From positions 315,501 through 379,500 of the forward strand of contig NC_007722.1 in assembly GCF_000013005.1 (NCBI RefSeq): DNA of 64,000 nt, read 5' to 3'. The position numbers and the translations under genes are program-made. Origin of the DNA: Erythrobacter litoralis HTCC2594 (GTDB taxonomy: Bacteria > Pseudomonadota > Alphaproteobacteria > Sphingomonadales > Sphingomonadaceae). Below are positions 28,900-38,493 of the stretch, piece after piece. Position 1 is the stretch's first letter. Each line of letters begins with the position of its first letter. The notes below the pieces were generated by a model. It was given only the letters and a program-made list of their open reading frames with translations. It had not been told where the DNA came from and made no database searches.

Positions 28900-29895
28900 T
28901 TACATCGAGAATGCGTCGCTGATCGAACAGGCCGCCGGACCGAGGATGACGATGAACAGGACCGGCAGGATGAACAGGATCAGCGGAACGGTCATGATCG
29001 CGGGCAGGCGCGCGGCCTTTTCCTCGGCGCGCATCATGCGCTCGTTGCGGAATTCGGCGGAAAGCACGCGCAAGGCCGAGGCCAGCGGCGTACCATAGCG
29101 TTCGGTCTGCACCATGGTGGTCACTACGCCTTTGACCGCTTCGAGATCGACGCGATAGGCGAGGTTGTCGAAGGCCTGCTTGCGTTCGGTCAGGAACGAG
29201 AGTTCGATGGCGGTGAGCGCAAATTCGTCGCCCAGTTCCGGATAGGCACGCCCCAGTTCCTTGGCGACGCGGTTGAAGGCAGCGTCGACCGTGAGGCCGG
29301 CTTCCGCGCAGATGACCAGCAGGTCGAGTGCATCGGGCAGGCCCTTGCGGATTGCGTCGGTGCGTTTTGCTGCCTTGTTCTTGAGCAGCATCTCCGGGCC
29401 CTTGTAACCCAGGCCCATCGCGACCACGAGCGCGGCATAGCGCTTCATCGCGCCCCATTCGGGGAAGAAGTCGAGGCCATAGACGACCAGGGCGACGATC
29501 CCGCCGAGAACGATCGGCAGAACCAGCCGCGCCCCGATAACGACGACCGCGAGTTCCTTGTTGCGGATGCCCGCATGCGCCAGCTTCTGCTGGATGACTT
29601 CGATCTGGCTCTGCTGCAGAACCTTCATATTCTGCAGCGTGTCCTTGACCTTTTCGGTCTGGTCGGTCTTGCGGACCAGGCTCTGGCGCTTCTTGCCGCT
29701 CGACTTGACGATACCGGCTTTCAGCTCGTCGCGACGCTCGTTGAGGGCCTTGACGCGCTTGGCCATGGGATCCTTGATTGTCACGGCGGCATAGATCGCC
29801 ATCATGACGGCAAGCGCTGCGAGGCCGGCAAGGATCGAGCCGACGAGAATAACGTCAACACCGAGCAGGGTGGGGCCGGATGAATTCTGGATCAT
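28900..29895 (-). CDS. tadC: Tad pilus inner-membrane platform protein TadC
   Basis: A 331-residue T2SSF-family membrane protein. One hydrophobic segment lies at about 15-38, two more near 112-165, and a C-terminal one near 295-320; the cytoplasmic T2SSF domain has the ICAEAGLTVDAAF and ERYGTPLASALRVLS blocks typical of TadC. With TadB it forms the platform on which the pilus is assembled. It starts 12 bp after the tadB stop codon behind a strong GGGAGGCAGG site and is the last gene of the locus on this strand, facing marR. tadD, which often follows, is absent. Confidence 0.95.
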   Translation of the reverse strand: MIQNSSGPTLLGVDVILVGSILAGLAALAVMMAIYAAVTIKDPMAKRVKALNERRDELKAGIVKSSGKKRQSLVRKTDQTEKVKDTLQNMKVLQQSQIEVIQQKLAHAGIRNKELAVVVIGARLVLPIVLGGIVALVVYGLDFFPEWGAMKRYAALVVAMGLGYKGPEMLLKNKAAKRTDAIRKGLPDALDLLVICAEAGLTVDAAFNRVAKELGRAYPELGDEFALTAIELSFLTERKQAFDNLAYRVDLEAVKGVVTTMVQTERYGTPLASALRVLSAEFRNERMMRAEEKAARLPAIMTVPLILFILPVLFIVILGPAACSISDAFSM

Positions 29896-29907
29896 GTCCT
29901 GCCTCCC

Positions 29908-30879
29908 TTATATTTCGAAGCTGACCATCTTGGCCATGATGAATGCCCCGATGCTCATCCACACCATGCCGCCCAGGCCGATCACGATCAGGCGTTCGTC
30001 GGTGAAGAAGCCATCGATATAGGTCGGGTTTATCCACCAGATCATCGCGAACACGATGAAGGGCAGGGCACCCACGATATAGGCCGAAGCTTTGGACTCC
30101 GAGCTCATGGCCCGGATCTTGAGCTTCATCTGGCCGCGCTTGCGCAGCACTTCCGACAGGTTCGACAGCGTTTCGGCGAGGTTTCCCCCGGTCTCACGCT
30201 GGATCGCCAGTGTGATGCAGAAGAAGTTGAACTCGGGGATATTCAGCTTGTCGGCCGTATCCTGGAGGCCTTCTTCCATCGTTTTCCCGATCTTGATGCG
30301 TTCGACGATCGACTTGAACTCGACACCGACCGGTCCCGGGACTTCCTGTGCCACCACGGCGAGGGTTTCCGTGACCGGTAGGCCCGAGCGCAGGCCGCGC
30401 ACGAGCAGTTCGATCGCATCGGGAAACTTCGAATTGAAGTCCGCCGTCCGCTTGTTAATGAAAAATCCGACCACGAAATGCGGCAGGCCGGCTCCGATCA
30501 CTGCACCCACGCCGAGCGAGAGCAGCAGCGCTCCGCTGCGCAGGAAGATCAGCACCGCGACGGTCAGACCGACGCCCAGCGAAGCATAGAAATACTGGCT
30601 GACCGTCCAGCCTTTTCCAGTCCGGTCCAGACGCAGTTCGAGCGCTTCGATACGCGAGGCCGAGCCGGCGATCCGATGTGCCTTGGGCTTGCGGGCCGCG
30701 ATGGCCTTCTTCAGCTGCGATTCAACCTTGGTGTCGGTGCTTTCGGAGTGGCGATAGCGCACGGCATTGAGCCGTCGCTGGCTTTCTTTTGCGGCGTTGG
30801 GACCGGACAGCGCGGAATATCCGACCACCATCAGGGCCATCAGGCCGCCTCCGAATAGCAAGAGCTGCAAAATGCTCAT
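29908..30879 (-). CDS. tadB: Tad pilus inner-membrane platform protein TadB
   Basis: A 323-residue T2SSF-family protein with an N-terminal membrane segment (about 3-22), a basic cytoplasmic stretch, two central membrane segments (about 95-140) and a C-terminal pair (about 265-320). The conserved GLRSGLPVTETLAVVA and QRETGGNLAETL blocks belong to TadB. It should bind the TadA/CpaF ATPase, but no such gene precedes it here: the next gene upstream is cpaE, 75 bp away. Confidence 0.95.
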   Translation of the reverse strand: MSILQLLLFGGGLMALMVVGYSALSGPNAAKESQRRLNAVRYRHSESTDTKVESQLKKAIAARKPKAHRIAGSASRIEALELRLDRTGKGWTVSQYFYASLGVGLTVAVLIFLRSGALLLSLGVGAVIGAGLPHFVVGFFINKRTADFNSKFPDAIELLVRGLRSGLPVTETLAVVAQEVPGPVGVEFKSIVERIKIGKTMEEGLQDTADKLNIPEFNFFCITLAIQRETGGNLAETLSNLSEVLRKRGQMKLKIRAMSSESKASAYIVGALPFIVFAMIWWINPTYIDGFFTDERLIVIGLGGMVWMSIGAFIMAKMVSFEI

Positions 30880-30912
30880 GCGCGCTTACCGCCTTTCCAA
30901 TTCATTATTCCG

Positions 30913-30946
30913 CCCGCCGGATCGCGGTTGCGCGATTGCCGGCGGG
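30913..30946 (-). other. Strong stem-loop in the cpaE-tadB gap
   Basis: CCCGCCGG (30913-30920) pairs with CCGGCGGG (30939-30946) and inside it ATCGCG pairs with CGCGAT, leaving a GTTG loop and a 2-nt bulge. No T run follows on either strand, so it is more likely an RNA processing or attenuation element than a terminator. It occupies the position where the secretion ATPase gene is normally found. Confidence 0.65.
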
Positions 30947-30954
30947 GGAGGGCA

Positions 30955-32238
30955 TTACTCGGCCTCAGCCTTCTCGGCTGCGGGCTCTTTCTTTTTCAGC
31001 AGCGACTTGAAGTCGAAGCCGCCGAGAAGCGATTTCTTCTGCGGCGCGCCGTCTTCACCGTCCTCGTCGCCCGCACCGATGATGCGTTCGGCGAGCTGGC
31101 GCACGACCTGGGTCGACTTTGCGCCCGGGTTGGCATCGACGAAGACCTGGCCGAGCTTGGCGGCGTTGGCGGCGGATTTCACATCGTAAGGGACGGTGAA
31201 ATCGATGCTGCGTTCGATCGAGGCTTCGAAATCGGCCTTGCTGATTTCGGCAACGCCCGATTGCACCTTGTTGGCGATCACGATCGGTACCGCGTGGGCA
31301 GCGTTGGTCTTGAGCCACGACAGGATGCGGATCGTGTCGCGCGCGGAAGCAAGCGTCATTTCCGTTGCGAGCGCGACGACGTTCACGTCGGCGAGCAGGT
31401 GCGGAAAATTGATCAGCATGTTGCGCGGCAGGTCGATCACCGTCATTTCGAACGCCTGGCGGAATTCCTCCTCCAGCTGCACGAATGCCGAACCGTCGGT
31501 CATCAGCGGCGCATTGATGGGCGCTTCTGCCGATAGGATGGCGAGGTTGTCGTTGGCGCGGATCATGGCGCGTTCGATGAACAGGCCGTCGATGCGGCTC
31601 GGGTTGTCGATCGCGTCGGTCAGGCCGCGGCCCGGTTCGAGATCGAGCGCGAGCGCACCGGTGCCGAAATGCACGTCGAGATCGAGCAATGCAGTTGGCA
31701 TCTTGTGTTCATCGCTGAACAGCCATGCGAGCGAAGTCGAGAGCATCGAAGCGCCGACCCCCCCACGTGTGCCGACAACCGCGGTCGAGATGTGGCGCTT
31801 GACGGTTTCGCCGTCACCCGCCTTGGGCGCAGCGAACACGGCCTGGGCCTGGTTCAGCGAATCGCGCAGCTGGCCGGCCGACAGCGGCTTGAGCAGGTAG
31901 TCGTGGATGCCGCTCGCAAGCAGGTCGCGATACAGGCGCACGTCATTGACCTGGCCGATTGCGACCACGACCGTGCCGGGTTCGCAAACTTCGGCCAGGG
32001 CATTGATGTCGTTCAGCGGATCTCCGCTTTCCGACAGGTCGACCATCAGGATGTTCGGACTGGCCGAAACCGATAGCGACTGGACCGCATTGCGCAGGCC
32101 GCCCTTGTTGCACTTTTCCGGAGCCCAGCCCATTTCGATGACGACCGGGCGCAGGATGTCCAGCGCGGTGTCATCGCAAATATAGGCTGCGAAAGGATCA
32201 CGATTGCCGGGCATACCGGCGTTCCATGGGGCGTTCAT
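30955..32238 (-). CDS. cpaE: Pilus assembly protein CpaE/TadZ (MinD-like)
   Basis: A 427-residue protein: an N-terminal receiver-like domain (about 18-135, with ILMVDLSE and the C-terminal LLKPLS) and a MinD/ParA-like ATPase fold from about 150. The P-loop is TRGGVGAS (157-164): both lysines of the MinD signature are replaced, by Arg158 and Ala163, as is usual in this family, so ATP hydrolysis is doubtful. LLDLDVHFG and VIDLPRNM are the other nucleotide-site strands. The C-terminus is a charged tail with KKKEP. TadZ-type proteins place the pilus machine at the cell pole. The gene starts 3 bp after the cpaD stop codon. Confidence 0.95.
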   Translation of the reverse strand: MNAPWNAGMPGNRDPFAAYICDDTALDILRPVVIEMGWAPEKCNKGGLRNAVQSLSVSASPNILMVDLSESGDPLNDINALAEVCEPGTVVVAIGQVNDVRLYRDLLASGIHDYLLKPLSAGQLRDSLNQAQAVFAAPKAGDGETVKRHISTAVVGTRGGVGASMLSTSLAWLFSDEHKMPTALLDLDVHFGTGALALDLEPGRGLTDAIDNPSRIDGLFIERAMIRANDNLAILSAEAPINAPLMTDGSAFVQLEEEFRQAFEMTVIDLPRNMLINFPHLLADVNVVALATEMTLASARDTIRILSWLKTNAAHAVPIVIANKVQSGVAEISKADFEASIERSIDFTVPYDVKSAANAAKLGQVFVDANPGAKSTQVVRQLAERIIGAGDEDGEDGAPQKKSLLGGFDFKSLLKKKEPAAEKAEAE

Positions 32239-32240
32239 TG

Positions 32241-32882
32241 TTATCCTCCCGTGCCGCCGGCCGAGGGCAGTGCGCCCACGCCTTCGGGTGCTTTAGCGCG
32301 ATAGGCTTCGACAGCTTTCGAGCCGCGACGCACATATGTTTCGCCGGAGCCCTCGTCGCCCTTCACCAGGTCTTCCGGATCGGCGACCATTGCGGCGAGA
32401 TTGCCGTTGATCGCGCAGCCGTAACCGGGGTGCGTGCCATTGGTGTAGTTCATCTCGGACTTGACCGACCAATCGGGACAACCCGGGACCGAAGCGCTGG
32501 AACGGGTGATGACGACGCGGGCGCTGCCCGGCTCGACATAGCCCGACGTGACCGGCGCACCGTCGCTCACGAGGATCCCATGACGCCCGGCAAGCTGCGA
32601 GATCGCATCCTTGGTAGAGCCGCTGAGCATCGGATCTTCGATCGACACGCGATCGCCGTAGCGCAGGTTCATGGCTTCGAACCAGCCGGAGAGCCGCTGC
32701 TGCTCGGGGATCGAAAGGCCACCCGGACCGGTGCGAACATCGAGCGTATAGTTCGTACGCTCGACCACCGGCTGCTTGGTGGAATACATCGTGCGGTTCT
32801 GCGGCATGCCACCGCAGGCGGCAAGCGAGAGGCCGACAGTCAGGGTGAGTACCCCGGCAAGTTTCCTAGTCAGTTTGGGCAT
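32241..32882 (-). CDS. cpaD: Pilus assembly lipoprotein CpaD
   Basis: A 213-residue lipoprotein with lipobox LAAC and acylated Cys23. I chose ATG 32882, which has AGGAAGGTGAGA before it; a GTG at 32900 overlaps the cpaC stop codon as GTGA and is an alternative start. The mature part has the CpaD-family features GLSIPEQQRLSGWF and PGCPDWS, with two further Cys that may pair. It is thought to help the CpaC secretin in the outer membrane. Confidence 0.92.
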   Translation of the reverse strand: MPKLTRKLAGVLTLTVGLSLAACGGMPQNRTMYSTKQPVVERTNYTLDVRTGPGGLSIPEQQRLSGWFEAMNLRYGDRVSIEDPMLSGSTKDAISQLAGRHGILVSDGAPVTSGYVEPGSARVVITRSSASVPGCPDWSVKSEMNYTNGTHPGYGCAINGNLAAMVADPEDLVKGDEGSGETYVRRGSKAVEAYRAKAPEGVGALPSAGGTGG

Positions 32883-32896
32883 CGTTCTCACCTTCC

Positions 32897-34543
32897 TCAC
32901 TTCAGGCTGAAACCGGGCGCGGCAGCAGCGGTGCGCTGCTTGTCACGCTTCGATTTCTTCGATTTCTTGGCGCTGCGGCGATCGTCCTTCTGCGTTTTCG
33001 GCGCAGGCAGCACCGCTGCGGGGTCGATCCTCGAAACGGCCGGGTTGGGACCGTCGCGATCCTGGGCGGTCGGTTTGGGCCGATCGCCGCCGGTCTTGCC
33101 GTCATTCTCCAGGAAGCCCAGCGTACGCTGCAGCTCATTGGGTGTCTGATAGCCGTCGGTCGGCAGCTTGATGTCGGTGCCGTCGACCGGCTTCACCAGA
33201 TACGGCGTAACCACGATCACCAGTTCGGTCTCGCCCTTGCGGAACGAGGTCGAACGGAACAGGTTGCCGATGATCGGCACGTCACCGAGGCCTGGGGCCT
33301 TGTCGACGGTATTCTGCGAGCTGTTGCTCATCAGGCCTGCGATCATGAAGCTCTGGCCGGAGCCAAGTTCCACGGTCGTTTCAGCGCGCCGAGTTGTAAG
33401 GGCCGGGATCTGGAAGCCGTTGAGCGTGATGGCGCCCTGGCTCGAGAGTTCCGACACTTCCGGCCGCACGCGGATCGAGATCCGGCCATTGGCGAGCACG
33501 GTCGGCGAATAGGCCAGGCTGACGCCGAAGTTGCGGTATTCGATCGAAGTCGTACCGAGGCCCTGGCTGATAGGGATCGGGAATTCACCGCCAGCCAGGA
33601 AGGTGGCGGTTTCGCCCGAGAGCGCGGTCAGATTCGGATTGGAGAGCGTCGTGATCAGGCCAAGGCGCTCGCCGACATCGAATGCGCTGGCAATGTCCAG
33701 ACCGAACAGGCGGCCTGCGAAGTTGAGCGCGGTCTGACCCGGGTTGTTGCTCGCAACGGGAAAATTCGCGCCACCGACGACAAATTGTCCGGTTGCCGGG
33801 TTGAATGGCAAGCTCAGCGACCCGGGCGGCAGGCCGAACTGTGCGGATGCGTCGAGTTGCGGAAACCCTGATGTGTCGATGTCGGTAATCGACCCGAAGT
33901 TGCGACCGCGATTGACACCGAACAGGAAGCCGTCGGTCGTATCGCGGGTCGTCAGGTTGGAGCCGATTTCACGTACCAGCGAGCGGCTGACTTCGGCAAT
34001 TCGCACCTGCAGGTTGACCTGCAGCGGAGTGGCCATTTTCAGGCGGCTGATAACGTTGGCACCGTCACCCAGGAAAGCCGTCACGAGACGCTCTGCCTCG
34101 GCAGCATCTTCCGGAGCAGCGACAGTGCCGGTCAGCAGCACAGTGTTGGTGCCCATGGTCGCCGTGGCGATCTTCGCTTCAGGCATGGCGAGCGCCAGCA
34201 TCTGGTCGAGGCTGTCGATATTGTTCGCTACGCGGACATTGGCCGCCCAGATAACGTCGCCGGCGGAATTGCTGGCGTAGATGGTCGTTTCGCCGCCGGA
34301 CTTGCCGAAGACATAGAGCTGGCGCTGCGATTTGATCTGGACGTCGGCCACCGCGTCGTTGGCGATAAACACATCTGCCATCGCGCCGGGCACGCTGATC
34401 AGTTCACCGCGACCGATCGACAGGACGACATCCTGCGACGGTTTCACGATCGACTGGGCGTGCGCGACCTGGGCCGGGCCGGCTGCGACTGGCAGCGCGG
34501 CAAGGCTCGCGACGAGCGCTTTTGCAATCAGGCGACGTTTCAT
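32897..34543 (-). CDS. cpaC: Tad pilus outer-membrane secretin CpaC/RcpA
   Basis: A 548-residue secretin with a signal peptide ending in HAQ; ATG 34543 has GAGGGGCAAG before it. The N-terminal pilus domain (VLSIGRGELISVPG, then YVFGKSGGETTIYA) is followed by a BON-like segment and the secretin domain (about 220-490) with LVREIGSNL, ALSGETATFLAGGEFPIP and the VPIIGNLFRS motif near its end. A basic, Lys-rich tail (KKSKKSKRDKQR) closes the protein, an unusual feature whose role is unclear. It forms the channel through which the pilus crosses the outer membrane. Confidence 0.95.
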   Translation of the reverse strand: MKRRLIAKALVASLAALPVAAGPAQVAHAQSIVKPSQDVVLSIGRGELISVPGAMADVFIANDAVADVQIKSQRQLYVFGKSGGETTIYASNSAGDVIWAANVRVANNIDSLDQMLALAMPEAKIATATMGTNTVLLTGTVAAPEDAAEAERLVTAFLGDGANVISRLKMATPLQVNLQVRIAEVSRSLVREIGSNLTTRDTTDGFLFGVNRGRNFGSITDIDTSGFPQLDASAQFGLPPGSLSLPFNPATGQFVVGGANFPVASNNPGQTALNFAGRLFGLDIASAFDVGERLGLITTLSNPNLTALSGETATFLAGGEFPIPISQGLGTTSIEYRNFGVSLAYSPTVLANGRISIRVRPEVSELSSQGAITLNGFQIPALTTRRAETTVELGSGQSFMIAGLMSNSSQNTVDKAPGLGDVPIIGNLFRSTSFRKGETELVIVVTPYLVKPVDGTDIKLPTDGYQTPNELQRTLGFLENDGKTGGDRPKPTAQDRDGPNPAVSRIDPAAVLPAPKTQKDDRRSAKKSKKSKRDKQRTAAAAPGFSLK

Positions 34544-34617
34544 GGTCTTGCCCCTCGTTTGGGAATTCGCCGTTTCGAATTGGCGACGGAATAAGATTGG
34601 GTTGGTCATGATGGTGC

Positions 34618-35733
34618 TCACCGGACCATTCCTGCACTGGCAGCGGGAACCGCCTGGGCGGCTTCGCCGAGACCTTGTTGCTGGCCCGACAGCACCTTGC
34701 CGGCAGCGCCGATCGGCACTTCGGTGGTCTGCTTGCCGCGCGTTACACGAACGGTCGGAACCGGCCGGACGACAACTTGCGTGCCGGGCGCCATGCCCCC
34801 GTTCTTCTGCGCGGTTTCGATAAACGCTGCGGCAGCGGCCTGAGCCTTTTCTTCCTTGCTGCGGGGCAGGGTCGAGCTCTGGAACCGCGAGACATCGCCG
34901 CCCGTGACGTAGCTTGTCGCGCCGTCGTTGGGGCGGTTCATGGCCGCCTGGATGATGCGCTCTTCCTCTTCCGGCGAAGCACCGTCGGGAATTTTCACGT
35001 CGCCCGAAGCGATAGCCCGCTCGAGCTCGGCCTGGTTATCGGCAATCGAGCGCAGCGCGAGACTGAGCGTGCCGAGAGTCTGGGCGACAGCGACCTTCTC
35101 GGCGATCTTCGGCGTCACTTCGAGCGTGACGGTGCGGAAGGCGCGAACGACAGTCTTGCCGGCTTCGTTGGTAGTCTGTTCGGTGGTCTGGTCAGTTGCG
35201 AGCACGCGCAGGTTGCGCAGGATCGTCTCGGTAGCCTTGAGATCGGTTTCCTCGCCTTTGACCGCCTGGGTCAGCATCAGGTCGACCCGGTCACCCGGGA
35301 AAACGAAGCCGGCGACGCCCGTGTTGGCCGAAACCGGCACCGTAATGGCGCGCATGCCCGGGCCGAGCGCCGCAGCGAGAAAGCCGCGGTCGCCGGGGCT
35401 CACCAGCGTACCCTGGGTAAGCGGTTCGCCAGCCGTAACGGGATGGCGCACAACGGTGCCGAGAAGCTGGGTGATGTCGGATTCGCCTTCGATGAAGTAG
35501 GCGTCCTGCACCAGCTCTTCGGGCCACATCTGGAACCCGAGCGCATCGGCGGTGATGATGGTGCCCACAGGCAGGCCGCGCTGGGCGACCAGCACCTTGG
35601 GTCCCTGGGGCTCTTGCACAGCTGCCGTCGCCTCCGGCGCGGAGGCTCCTGCAAACATGCTCCGGGCTGCCATGGCGGTGCCTACCGCAATGATCAGCGC
35701 TGCGAGCAGCAGAACGAGCTTCTTCCTGTCCAT
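34618..35733 (-). CDS. cpaB: Pilus assembly protein CpaB/RcpC
   Basis: A 371-residue protein anchored by one N-terminal membrane segment (about 5-24) with a SAF domain (VLVAQRGLPVGTIITADAL, about 49-110) and a second Flp-assembly domain containing GDRVDLMLT. It is a periplasmic partner of the secretin. ATG 35733 carries AGGGGG at a slightly long spacing. The C-terminal 100 residues are Ala/Gln-rich and low in complexity. Confidence 0.93.
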   Translation of the reverse strand: MDRKKLVLLLAALIIAVGTAMAARSMFAGASAPEATAAVQEPQGPKVLVAQRGLPVGTIITADALGFQMWPEELVQDAYFIEGESDITQLLGTVVRHPVTAGEPLTQGTLVSPGDRGFLAAALGPGMRAITVPVSANTGVAGFVFPGDRVDLMLTQAVKGEETDLKATETILRNLRVLATDQTTEQTTNEAGKTVVRAFRTVTLEVTPKIAEKVAVAQTLGTLSLALRSIADNQAELERAIASGDVKIPDGASPEEEERIIQAAMNRPNDGATSYVTGGDVSRFQSSTLPRSKEEKAQAAAAAFIETAQKNGGMAPGTQVVVRPVPTVRVTRGKQTTEVPIGAAGKVLSGQQQGLGEAAQAVPAASAGMVR

Positions 35734-35820
35734 GGCTATGTAGCCCCCTTCAGTCGTGCCCGCGGACATCGCGGGTTGGTATGGTTGCCGTCGTTACGGC
35801 CAAAGTAGTTAAAATCGGGT

Positions 35821-36324
35821 TCACCCCACTGCGCTGCCGGCGGCGATCGAGGCTTGCGCGAGCGGAAAATAATGTGTTGTCAGGATCCACAGGCCGGCGG
35901 CCGAGATCGCTACGCCATAGGGAATGGCGAGCCGTTCTCGCTGGCGGCGGATCAGGTGCCACATGCCGAACAGCAGCGTCAGTACGCCGCCGAGCAGGGC
36001 CATGATCACGATGAGATTGAAGAACAGCGCCGGGGCGATCCACAACGCCAGCGCGGTAAGCAGTTTGACATCGCCGCCGCCCATCCAGCGCATTGCGAAC
36101 AAGCCGGCGCAGATCGCGAAAGTGATGAGGGCCACGCCAAGCTGCCACGCGACCCCGGGCCACAGGTCGAGCCCGCTCGACCACCAGAAGAGGGGGGCGC
36201 CCAGAGCGATCGCGCCGTTGAGCCAGTTGCCGATCTGGCGACTGCGCAAATCGGTGAACGCGGCCGTCAGCAGTGCGATTGCCAACGCCACAAGCAGTCC
36301 GTAGTGAAGATAGTCAGCCACCAT
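35821..36324 (-). CDS. cpaA: Type IV prepilin peptidase CpaA (TadV)
   Basis: A 167-residue polytopic protein, the short TadV-like form without the methyltransferase domain. The two catalytic aspartates are Asp25 in FTDLRSRQIGNW and Asp85 in GGGDVKLL. It should cut the leader from Flp pilin. It is the first gene of the locus on this strand; no flp pilin gene lies upstream (the hydrolase at 36444 is divergent) or in the 87 bp before cpaB. Confidence 0.93.
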   Translation of the reverse strand: MVADYLHYGLLVALAIALLTAAFTDLRSRQIGNWLNGAIALGAPLFWWSSGLDLWPGVAWQLGVALITFAICAGLFAMRWMGGGDVKLLTALALWIAPALFFNLIVIMALLGGVLTLLFGMWHLIRRQRERLAIPYGVAISAAGLWILTTHYFPLAQASIAAGSAVG

Positions 36325-36443: not shown

Positions 36444-37391
36444 ATGACCCGTTTCGATCGCCGCGCCATTCCGTCATCAGCGAAGGAAGATTGGTGGGGC
36501 CTGCCCGATGGGCACAGGGTGCGCCGTATCGATTGGGCGAGCGAGGCCGAGCCTCCGCGCGGCTCCATCCTGTTCATGCCGGGGCGCGGCGATCACTACG
36601 AGAAATACCTCGAAAGTCTGGATGAATGGCATCGCGCCGGCTGGCAGGTGACGGCAGCCGACTGGCGCGGCCAAGGTGCCTCCGGACGGCTCGGGACCGA
36701 CGAGGTGACTGGCCATGTCGACGACTTTGCGATCTGGATCGACGATTTGGCGGCGCTGTGGGCCGACTGGAAAGCGCAGACGCCAGGACCGCATGTGCTG
36801 GTCGCGCATTCCATGGGCGGACATCTGGGCTTGCGGGCGGTGGCCGAAGAACGGGTCGATCCCGGCGCGGTGGTGCTTTCCGCGCCCATGCTCGGCTTTG
36901 TCGGCAACCTCCCCGTCAGCCTGACGCACGGCGTAGCGCGGCTGATGTCCCGGGTGGGCGACCCCAGGCGGCCGGCGTGGAAGTGGAGCGAAAAGCCCGG
37001 AGAAATTCCTGCGGGCCGCCTCAAGCTCCTGACCCACGACGACGAGCGCTATCAGGACGAACTATGGTGGCGTGAAAAGCGGCCCGAACTCGTCATGGGC
37101 CCCGGAAGCTGGGGCTGGGTGGAGCGCGCTTATGCCTCGATGCGCGGCTTGTTCGCGGAAGGCGTGCTCGAAAGCGTTACGACACCGATCTTGCTGCTGT
37201 CGACCTCGAACGACAAACTCGTGAGCCACCGCAAGGTGGTCGACGCTGCGGAACGCCTGCCCAACAGCGAGCTCTTGGCTTTCGGACGCGAATGTCATCA
37301 CGAAATCCTTCGCGAAGTCGATGCCGTTCGCGATCGCGCGATGGAGGGTATCGCCAATTTCCTCGACCGCAAGGCGCCCGCGAGAGACTGA
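36444..37391 (+). CDS. Alpha/beta hydrolase, lysophospholipase-like
   Basis: A 315-residue cytosolic hydrolase of the serine-aminopeptidase S33/monoacylglycerol lipase type. The nucleophile elbow is VAHSMGGH (Ser123); LLLSTSNDKLVSH supplies the acid and ECHHEIL the histidine. DWRGQGASGR matches the strand-4 motif of lysophospholipase L2. ATG 36444 was chosen because upstream codons overlap the divergent cpaA gene. It ends 7 bp before the oxidoreductase gene, so the two are probably cotranscribed. Confidence 0.9.
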   Translation: MTRFDRRAIPSSAKEDWWGLPDGHRVRRIDWASEAEPPRGSILFMPGRGDHYEKYLESLDEWHRAGWQVTAADWRGQGASGRLGTDEVTGHVDDFAIWIDDLAALWADWKAQTPGPHVLVAHSMGGHLGLRAVAEERVDPGAVVLSAPMLGFVGNLPVSLTHGVARLMSRVGDPRRPAWKWSEKPGEIPAGRLKLLTHDDERYQDELWWREKRPELVMGPGSWGWVERAYASMRGLFAEGVLESVTTPILLLSTSNDKLVSHRKVVDAAERLPNSELLAFGRECHHEILREVDAVRDRAMEGIANFLDRKAPARD

Positions 37392-37398
37392 CCGGGTC

Positions 37399-38493
37399 AT
37401 GGCGGACTACGATATCGCCATCATAGGGGCGGGAATGGCCGGTGCCAGCCTTGCCGCGGAATGCGTGCCCCATGCGCGGGTTCTGTTGCTCGAAGCCGAG
37501 GATATGCCGGGCTACCACACGACCGGACGCTCCGCCGCATTCTGGGAGGAATGCTATGGCGGGCCGGAGCTCGTGCCGCTTACCCTCGCGTCGGGGGCGT
37601 ATCTGCGTGAGCACGGCTTTCTGACGGAACGCGGAGCCTTATACATTGCGCGTCGGGATGGTGTGGCATCTCTCGACGCTTTTATGGACCGGTTCGGCCC
37701 TACCGGCGTGACGATCAAGCGTGTGGGCCGCGCCGAGCTCGAACAACGCCTGCCCCGGCTCAGGCCGGCATGGGTGGAAGGCATCTGGCAACCGCGGTGC
37801 AGCGATATCGATGTCGCGGGCCTGCACCAGCACTATCTCGGGCAAGCAAGAAAGGGCGGCGCCGCGCCGGTGTGCCGGGCACGCATCTCGCGGATCGAGC
37901 GCGCGGAAGGCGGCTGGCGGCTGTGGTCGGAACGCGGGCAATCGTGGTCTGCCCGCACGATAGCCAACGCCGCCGGGGCCTGGGCCGACCAGATCGCCGG
38001 AATGGCCGGGGCGCAAGCAGTTGGTATCCAGCCCTATCGCCGGACAGTCGCGCAACTGGCGACCGATCCACCTCCTCCGGGCGACCAGCCGCTGGTGCTC
38101 GACATCGGCGGCGGGTTCTATTTCAAGCCCGATGCAGGGCGGGTCTGGCTCAGCCCGCATGACGAGGAACCGAGCGAGCCCTGCGATGCTGCGCCCGAGG
38201 AGCTCGTTGTGGCGGAAGCGATCGATCGGTTCGAGCAGGTCGTTGACTGGGACATCCGCAAAATCGAGCGGAAATGGGCCGGACTGCGCAGCTTTTCGCC
38301 CGATCGCTTGCCGGTCTACGGTTGGGACCGCGAACGCGACGGTTTCTTCTGGTTCGCGGGCCAAGGAGGCTACGGTATCCAGACCGCGCCTGCGGCGGCG
38401 CGGCTCGGCGCGCAATTGCTGCTCGGACGGGAACGGGACGCTCTTACACAGGGTCTCGACGCAAACCTTTATAGTCCGGCCCGCTTTCGCTAG
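37399..38493 (+). CDS. FAD-dependent oxidoreductase (DAO family)
   Basis: A 364-residue flavoprotein with the dinucleotide motif IIGAGMAGAS (8-17), an acidic residue ending the next strand (LLLEAE), and the DAO-family C-terminal FAD segment GFFWFAGQGGYGIQTAP. GRSAAFWEECYGG follows the FAD fold as in glycine or D-amino-acid oxidases. It probably oxidises an amino or hydroxy acid; the substrate is not known. Start codon ATG 37399 lies 7 bp downstream of the hydrolase stop. Confidence 0.9.
   Translation: MADYDIAIIGAGMAGASLAAECVPHARVLLLEAEDMPGYHTTGRSAAFWEECYGGPELVPLTLASGAYLREHGFLTERGALYIARRDGVASLDAFMDRFGPTGVTIKRVGRAELEQRLPRLRPAWVEGIWQPRCSDIDVAGLHQHYLGQARKGGAAPVCRARISRIERAEGGWRLWSERGQSWSARTIANAAGAWADQIAGMAGAQAVGIQPYRRTVAQLATDPPPPGDQPLVLDIGGGFYFKPDAGRVWLSPHDEEPSEPCDAAPEELVVAEAIDRFEQVVDWDIRKIERKWAGLRSFSPDRLPVYGWDRERDGFFWFAGQGGYGIQTAPAAARLGAQLLLGRERDALTQGLDANLYSPARFR

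Follow-up and report, generated by a model that had tools for sequence, protein, structure and literature searches.

The window analyzed here is a stretch of 64,000 nucleotides (contig NC_007722.1, hereafter C1, positions 315501-379500) from the single-contig, 3.05-Mb genome of Erythrobacter litoralis HTCC2594. Its minus strand carries part of a Tad/Flp pilus system at positions 28900-36324, where seven open frames follow each other in the order tadC-tadB-cpaE-cpaD-cpaC-cpaB-cpaA and match the fitting Pfam families:

35821..36324, minus strand: cpaA/tadV, prepilin peptidase (Peptidase_A24, E 4.8e-13)
34618..35769 (frame limits; true start possibly further in), minus strand: cpaB/rcpC (RcpC, E 5.1e-37, and SAF)
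32897..34621 (frame limits; true start possibly further in), minus strand: cpaC/rcpA, secretin (Secretin, E 6.7e-42, and T2SS-T3SS_pil_N)
32241..32900, minus strand: cpaD (Pilus_CpaD, E 2.1e-42)
30955..32238, minus strand: cpaE/tadZ, MinD-like ATPase (CbiA, E 2.7e-4, below cut-off; TIGR03815 CpaE_hom_Actino, 46.9 bits, below cut-off)
30880..30954, minus strand: cpaE-tadB spacer of 75 bp with a predicted RNA hairpin, at the position of the resident cpaF in related loci
29908..30879, minus strand: tadB/cpaG, platform protein (T2SSF, E 3.7e-26)
28900..29895, minus strand: tadC/cpaH, platform protein (T2SSF, E 7.5e-19)

The initial annotation had described cpaA, cpaB, cpaC, cpaD, cpaE, tadB, and tadC as intact and in their usual order, which was confirmed by the open frames and Pfam matches. 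It had also noted that no cpaF stands between cpaE and tadB, and just 75 bp (30880-30954) were indeed found there. No whole-genome match to T2SSE, Flp_Fap, or TadE falls inside the window (tadD was not searched for), and the motor, flp pilin, and tadE are thus missing from it, as first observed.

One option raised at the outset, that the rest of the genes would be found at other chromosomal sites, was borne out by a profile search of the genome for CpaF, the Flp pilins, and TadE/TadG. An intact CpaF/TadA ATPase of 507 aa is encoded at C1:519842-521359 (L014:5840-7363), approximately 174 kb from tadB. It matched T2SSE (E 5.2e-60) and the solved CpaF chains 9e24 and 8rkd (E 3e-143), and scored 331.9 bits with TIGR03819, which is under the cut-off of that model (373.15). 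Flp pilin matches exceeded the cut-off at two sites, 1029.1 and 1029.4 kb; another match (41.6 kb) stayed below it. One TadG-like gene and two TadE genes (PF13400 and PF07811 matches) lie together as tadG-E-E at 1697-1700 kb; PF07811 had five matches in the whole genome. The single genome match to the secretin family (PF00263) is cpaC of the window, and the only two T2SSF matches are its tadB and tadC. One secretin and one tadB/tadC pair indicate one Tad platform, the parts of which are distributed over at least four chromosomal places. A second Tad platform was ruled out on the same grounds. The components found in the genome comprise the CpaF motor, TadB and TadC, CpaC/CpaB/CpaD, Flp pilin, and TadE/TadG; the single-locus organization, which is usual but not essential for Tad systems, is not present. 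Beside these parts, a further group of genes resembling tadG and tadE (L016:4162-8597, approximately 1324-1329 kb) lies distant from all other tad pieces, and two small genes between the distant cpaF and glmS (L014:7616-8199) resemble, by eye, an antitoxin and PIN-domain toxin pair.

The T2SSE family is represented by two genes in the genome, the distant cpaF and a gene at 684.8 kb. The latter clears the VirB11 equivalog cut-off and was ruled out as the Tad motor. The distant CpaF might nevertheless serve another machine, with the platform driven by a different ATPase such as this VirB11-type protein; no platform gene adjoins the distant cpaF, and where two motors are present it could have a different role. 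However, the genome contains no further T2SSF or secretin match, and in Sphingopyxis granuli the repression of cpaF goes along with that of the tad pieces, according to the available part of that report (PMC6472365). We consider this alternative very improbable.

The cpaF-less junction is not peculiar to the window. Fetching by TadB similarity yielded 39 named relatives. In 38 of them the fetched stretch includes cpaE as well as tadB, and the junction lacks cpaF in all 38, with spacers of 6-101 nt (frame end to frame end). The comparison with relatives proposed by the initial annotation thus showed a common gap. The same result bears on the assembly error that had been suspected at 30880-30954: a clean 75-bp junction alone would be compatible with cpaF having been taken out of the locus in this way, and the identical arrangement in the separate assemblies of these relatives refutes it, leaving the error with practically no probability. 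The spacer is prone to forming an RNA hairpin. Over the 75 nt that follow cpaE at the 38 loci (among L020-L057; where the spacer is short, the 75 nt extend into tadB), the mean RNA-fold z was -1.86, with 17 loci below -2, compared with a mean of -0.27 and three loci below -2 for a control inside cpaE; the window's own spacer gave -1.73.

The layout was further surveyed in 59 genomes of the family from 58 genera, own genome included; VirB11-like matches (40% identity or less) were left out of the typing. In the following, a cpaF lying between cpaE and tadB is called resident, and the type represented by the distant gene of the window organism is called orphan CpaF, a name coined here. A CpaF 72-100% identical to that of the window organism was found in 46 of the 59 genomes, in no case within 12 kb of a tadB. 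Twenty-five of these genes are on the same contig as a tadB, the nearest at 12.6 kb (G029), and the remaining ones are on other contigs; the gene of G034 is cut by the contig end, and G025 is without a tadB match. A CpaF with 45-60% identity adjoins a tadB in 15 family genomes. In six of them (G015, G017, G020, G031, G035, and G058), this tadB is just 27-36% identical to that of the window and represents a different Tad locus; such additional loci, with their own cpaF beside the distant tadB, were seen in L112 (G015), L113 (G035), and L118 (G017). In the other nine (G005, G007, G012, G013, G022, G030, G040, G052, and G056), the adjoining tadB is the closest of the genome to the window's, with 37-55% identity over the longest piece. 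The in-locus cpaF of G007 is split over two frames (L170:6430-7937), which may be an error, as may a further oddity of this genome described below, because the completeness of its assembly is 86% and the contamination 7%.

Outside the family, the usual arrangement prevails. In the order sample (its 14 own-family genomes untallied), cpaF adjoins tadB in 42 of the 43 genomes with a tadB, the exception being G071, where tadB is close to a contig end; a further three genomes lack both genes. In the class sample, tadB stands beside cpaF at 27 of the 28 fetched CpaF loci, and the 28th stretch shows cpaF alone. Within the family, a CpaF is present in all 53 genomes with a tadB match, five genomes have neither, and the two genes occur together in all but one of the 54 genomes with either.

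These counts also bear on whether the strain or lineage has lost its Tad pili, leaving the seven genes as a remnant or as a complex with another, motorless function. A locus without motor or pilin would agree with such a loss. However, intact genes for the motor, the pilins, and TadE/G occur at other places in the genome, cpaF and tadB co-occur as described, and the ratios of nonsynonymous to synonymous substitution rates (dN/dS) between two congeners are low (0.07 for cpaF and tadB, 0.08-0.12 for cpaE, tadC, and cpaB, and 0.23 for cpaC). Loss of the pilus is therefore highly improbable. Of the two forms in which the initial annotation had put it, a clean deletion in the strain is contradicted by the junction in all 38 testable relatives and the low dN/dS, and a motorless complex with another job by the CpaF present in every family genome having a tadB match. 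The cpaF-less locus as first noticed is explained and is ordinary for this family. A locus of this kind viewed alone is an annotation trap, by which the strains would be called pilus-deficient.

In a tree of 56 CpaF rows, the 36 encoded apart from tadB and the 20 encoded beside it fell on the two sides of one branch (support 100/99). When class outgroups were included, the orphans stayed one group (100/100); this 62-row tree combined 36 of the 56 rows with 26 of the 29 class loci, leaving out 18 close orphan rows of the family, G035_in, G077_det, one own-family locus, and two short class loci. The distant CpaF of the window organism falls within the orphan clade in both trees. Orphan CpaF also occurs outside the family, in eight genomes from six families (G060, G071, G073, G076, G077, G080, G082, and G084); seven of these genomes have a resident CpaF beside tadB as well, and within the family both are carried by G005, G040, and G056, where the resident cpaF sits between cpaE and tadB. 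Resident-type residues had returned in the orphan-only CpaFs at one column, against 13 columns keeping the orphan state (in a comparison that excluded the orphans of G077 and G080 along with five outlying in-locus rows), which gives no signal of convergence.

Judged from these sequences, it is strongly supported that the distant CpaF belongs to a separate lineage and is not a moved resident gene. The initial interpretation was thus right in looking for the genes elsewhere, and the motor found there is of a different lineage instead of a relocated resident copy. A mere move of the resident cpaF out of the operon, with no second motor involved, would be in line with the mobility of other pieces of the system, as the pilins and tadG/E/F are scattered from the same locus. 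It is made very unlikely by the split between orphan and in-locus CpaFs and by the genomes, in this and six other families, that contain orphans beside resident ones.

The history of the locus itself was followed in a joined CpaC+CpaE+TadB+TadC tree of 43 loci, from which three second-locus rows had been removed and which did not include the main loci of G077, G080, and G082. The 25 orphan-only loci formed one group (100 in the Shimodaira-Hasegawa-like approximate likelihood ratio test, SH-aLRT), nested within the loci having a resident motor; states were assigned by hand, and G071 was scored as carrying both, its in-locus gene being undecided. A relative of the window gene at 37321-38493 adjoins 19 of the 25 loci without a resident cpaF and four of the 18 loci with one (G012, G052, G056, and G076). 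Because this neighbor is common to both kinds of loci, the locus did not move. Further parts of the system departed from the locus as well. In other families, relatives of the window organism's tadE or tadG adjoin the locus in G060, G065, G071, G072, and G090, whereas the pilins of the sampled family genomes are encoded at a distance from the main locus, including in genomes that retain the resident cpaF (G005, G012, G040, and G052 among them).

A second gene accompanies the orphan motor outside the orphan-only group. At all 11 loci fetched there, a small DUF6812 gene lies directly downstream of the orphan cpaF, and ten of these genomes keep an ordinary cpaF beside tadB as well, the eleventh not being settled:

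L078:8285-8527, L076:8549-8863, L099:5876-6139, L111:7927-8181, and seven further loci: DUF6812 gene, after orphan cpaF

The orphan cpaF and DUF6812 form an undescribed two-gene unit. Three of four DUF6812 members scored above the PF20660 cut-off and one below. Pfam and NCBIfam give the family no function, with NCBIfam matches nowhere near the cut-off, and the predicted model suggests a possible Hfq-like small barrel. DUF6812 had no match in the genome of the window organism and is missing throughout the orphan-only group; it is therefore a marker of the ancestral state rather than of the orphan lineage. In G007, a DUF6812 gene is kept behind the last 60 residues only of a CpaF (L169:3365-3789).

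Gene content, gene positions, the tree split, the shared neighbor gene, and co-occurrence lead us to a reading that we hold with high confidence: the organism would have a single, scattered Tad pilus, with the orphan CpaF as its sole motor after loss of the resident cpaF. The run in the window would supply one Tad (type IVc) pilus with its secretin, its alignment components, and its platform, and the outside parts would be the motor CpaF at 519.8-521.4 kb, the two Flp pilins at about 1029 kb, and tadG-E-E at 1697-1700 kb. Ancestors probably had two motors per such locus: one was a resident cpaF, in its place between cpaE and tadB, and the other an orphan cpaF at a distance, accompanied by DUF6812. 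The window lineage would then have shed the resident cpaF and DUF6812, leaving the orphan as the sole motor. A single loss is the simplest account for the resident cpaF and likewise for DUF6812, and across a large sphingomonad group the second motor type appears to have taken the place of the original.

Several points weigh against this reading. That the orphan CpaF would drive the window's platform is our inference. The sister of the orphan clade is not placed by the 62-row tree, so that duplication and transfer are both possible, and the 43-locus tree was a quick one. In G025 (380 contigs), an orphan CpaF occurs without any tadB match. The histidine motif of the 36 orphan rows is variable: TLHAN in 19 rows, TLHSN in 12, TIHAN or TVHAN in two, with the pattern unmatched in three. 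In favor of the reading, every one of these rows contains GGTGSGKTT (Walker A) and a Walker-B-like stretch.

A further possibility, tentative and in our judgment rather unlikely, is that the orphan CpaF and DUF6812 would be a second dedicated Tad motor unit, either a PilT counterpart or an alternative extension motor, under control of the small, possibly Hfq-like partner. This auxiliary motor might have displaced the resident one in the window lineage and lost its partner, so that a two-motor machine would now run on the auxiliary alone. The two-motor hypothesis would be testable in genomes that combine two CpaF types with a single matching platform. Under the preferred reading of a scattered pilus with a sole orphan motor, the genomes that have retained both motors form a natural series in which motor replacement can be traced. 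The aspects worth following are the orphan motor, the DUF6812 partner that was lost, and the way in which the resident motor was replaced.

In Caulobacter crescentus, cpaF is located inside the cpa locus. The window organism differs from it in having a distant motor of the orphan lineage, and resembles it in the secretin, CpaE, CpaF, two platform proteins, and Flp pilin, as far as the available description goes. According to the accessible part of one study, CpaF alone mediates extension and retraction in C. crescentus by a mechanism called "elusive", and most systems lack a dedicated retraction ATPase (PMC11300603). Sinorhizobium meliloti GR4 is reported, in the portion at hand, to have two flp clusters in which cpaF1 and cpaF2 each stand with platform genes (PMC10934763). 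It resembles the two-motor sphingomonads in having two CpaF genes per genome; unlike these CpaFs, the orphan cpaF has no platform genes beside it, and the names cpaF1 and cpaF2 are unrelated to the resident and orphan types.

Tad systems are described, in the section available, as almost exclusively single-locus, scattered ones being very rare (PMC6668835), and the scattered layout is the rule in most genera sampled from this one family. Titles and abstract openings in the literature on dispersed or orphan cpaF in sphingomonads gave no pointer to the orphan CpaF lineage among the matches listed, and among those listed for sphingomonad cpaF the split layout was found in PMC6472365 only, as table rows. 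As far as the available part of that paper shows, neither the split nor a distinct CpaF lineage is commented on there. Its table for S. granuli TFA includes cpaABCDEtadBC (1907-1901), a Flp pilin (3632), tadGE1E2 (0765-0767), and cpaF (3775), an arrangement like that of the window organism, with one run lacking cpaF and the pilin, tadGE1E2, and cpaF elsewhere. These genes were 4- to 13-fold lower under anoxia in the RNA-seq table, and all 13 pilus genes are stated in the text to be repressed (PMC6472365). Such co-repression, within the part of the report available, backs one co-regulated, scattered machine, and by analogy we infer that the scattered pieces may likewise be expressed together in the window species.

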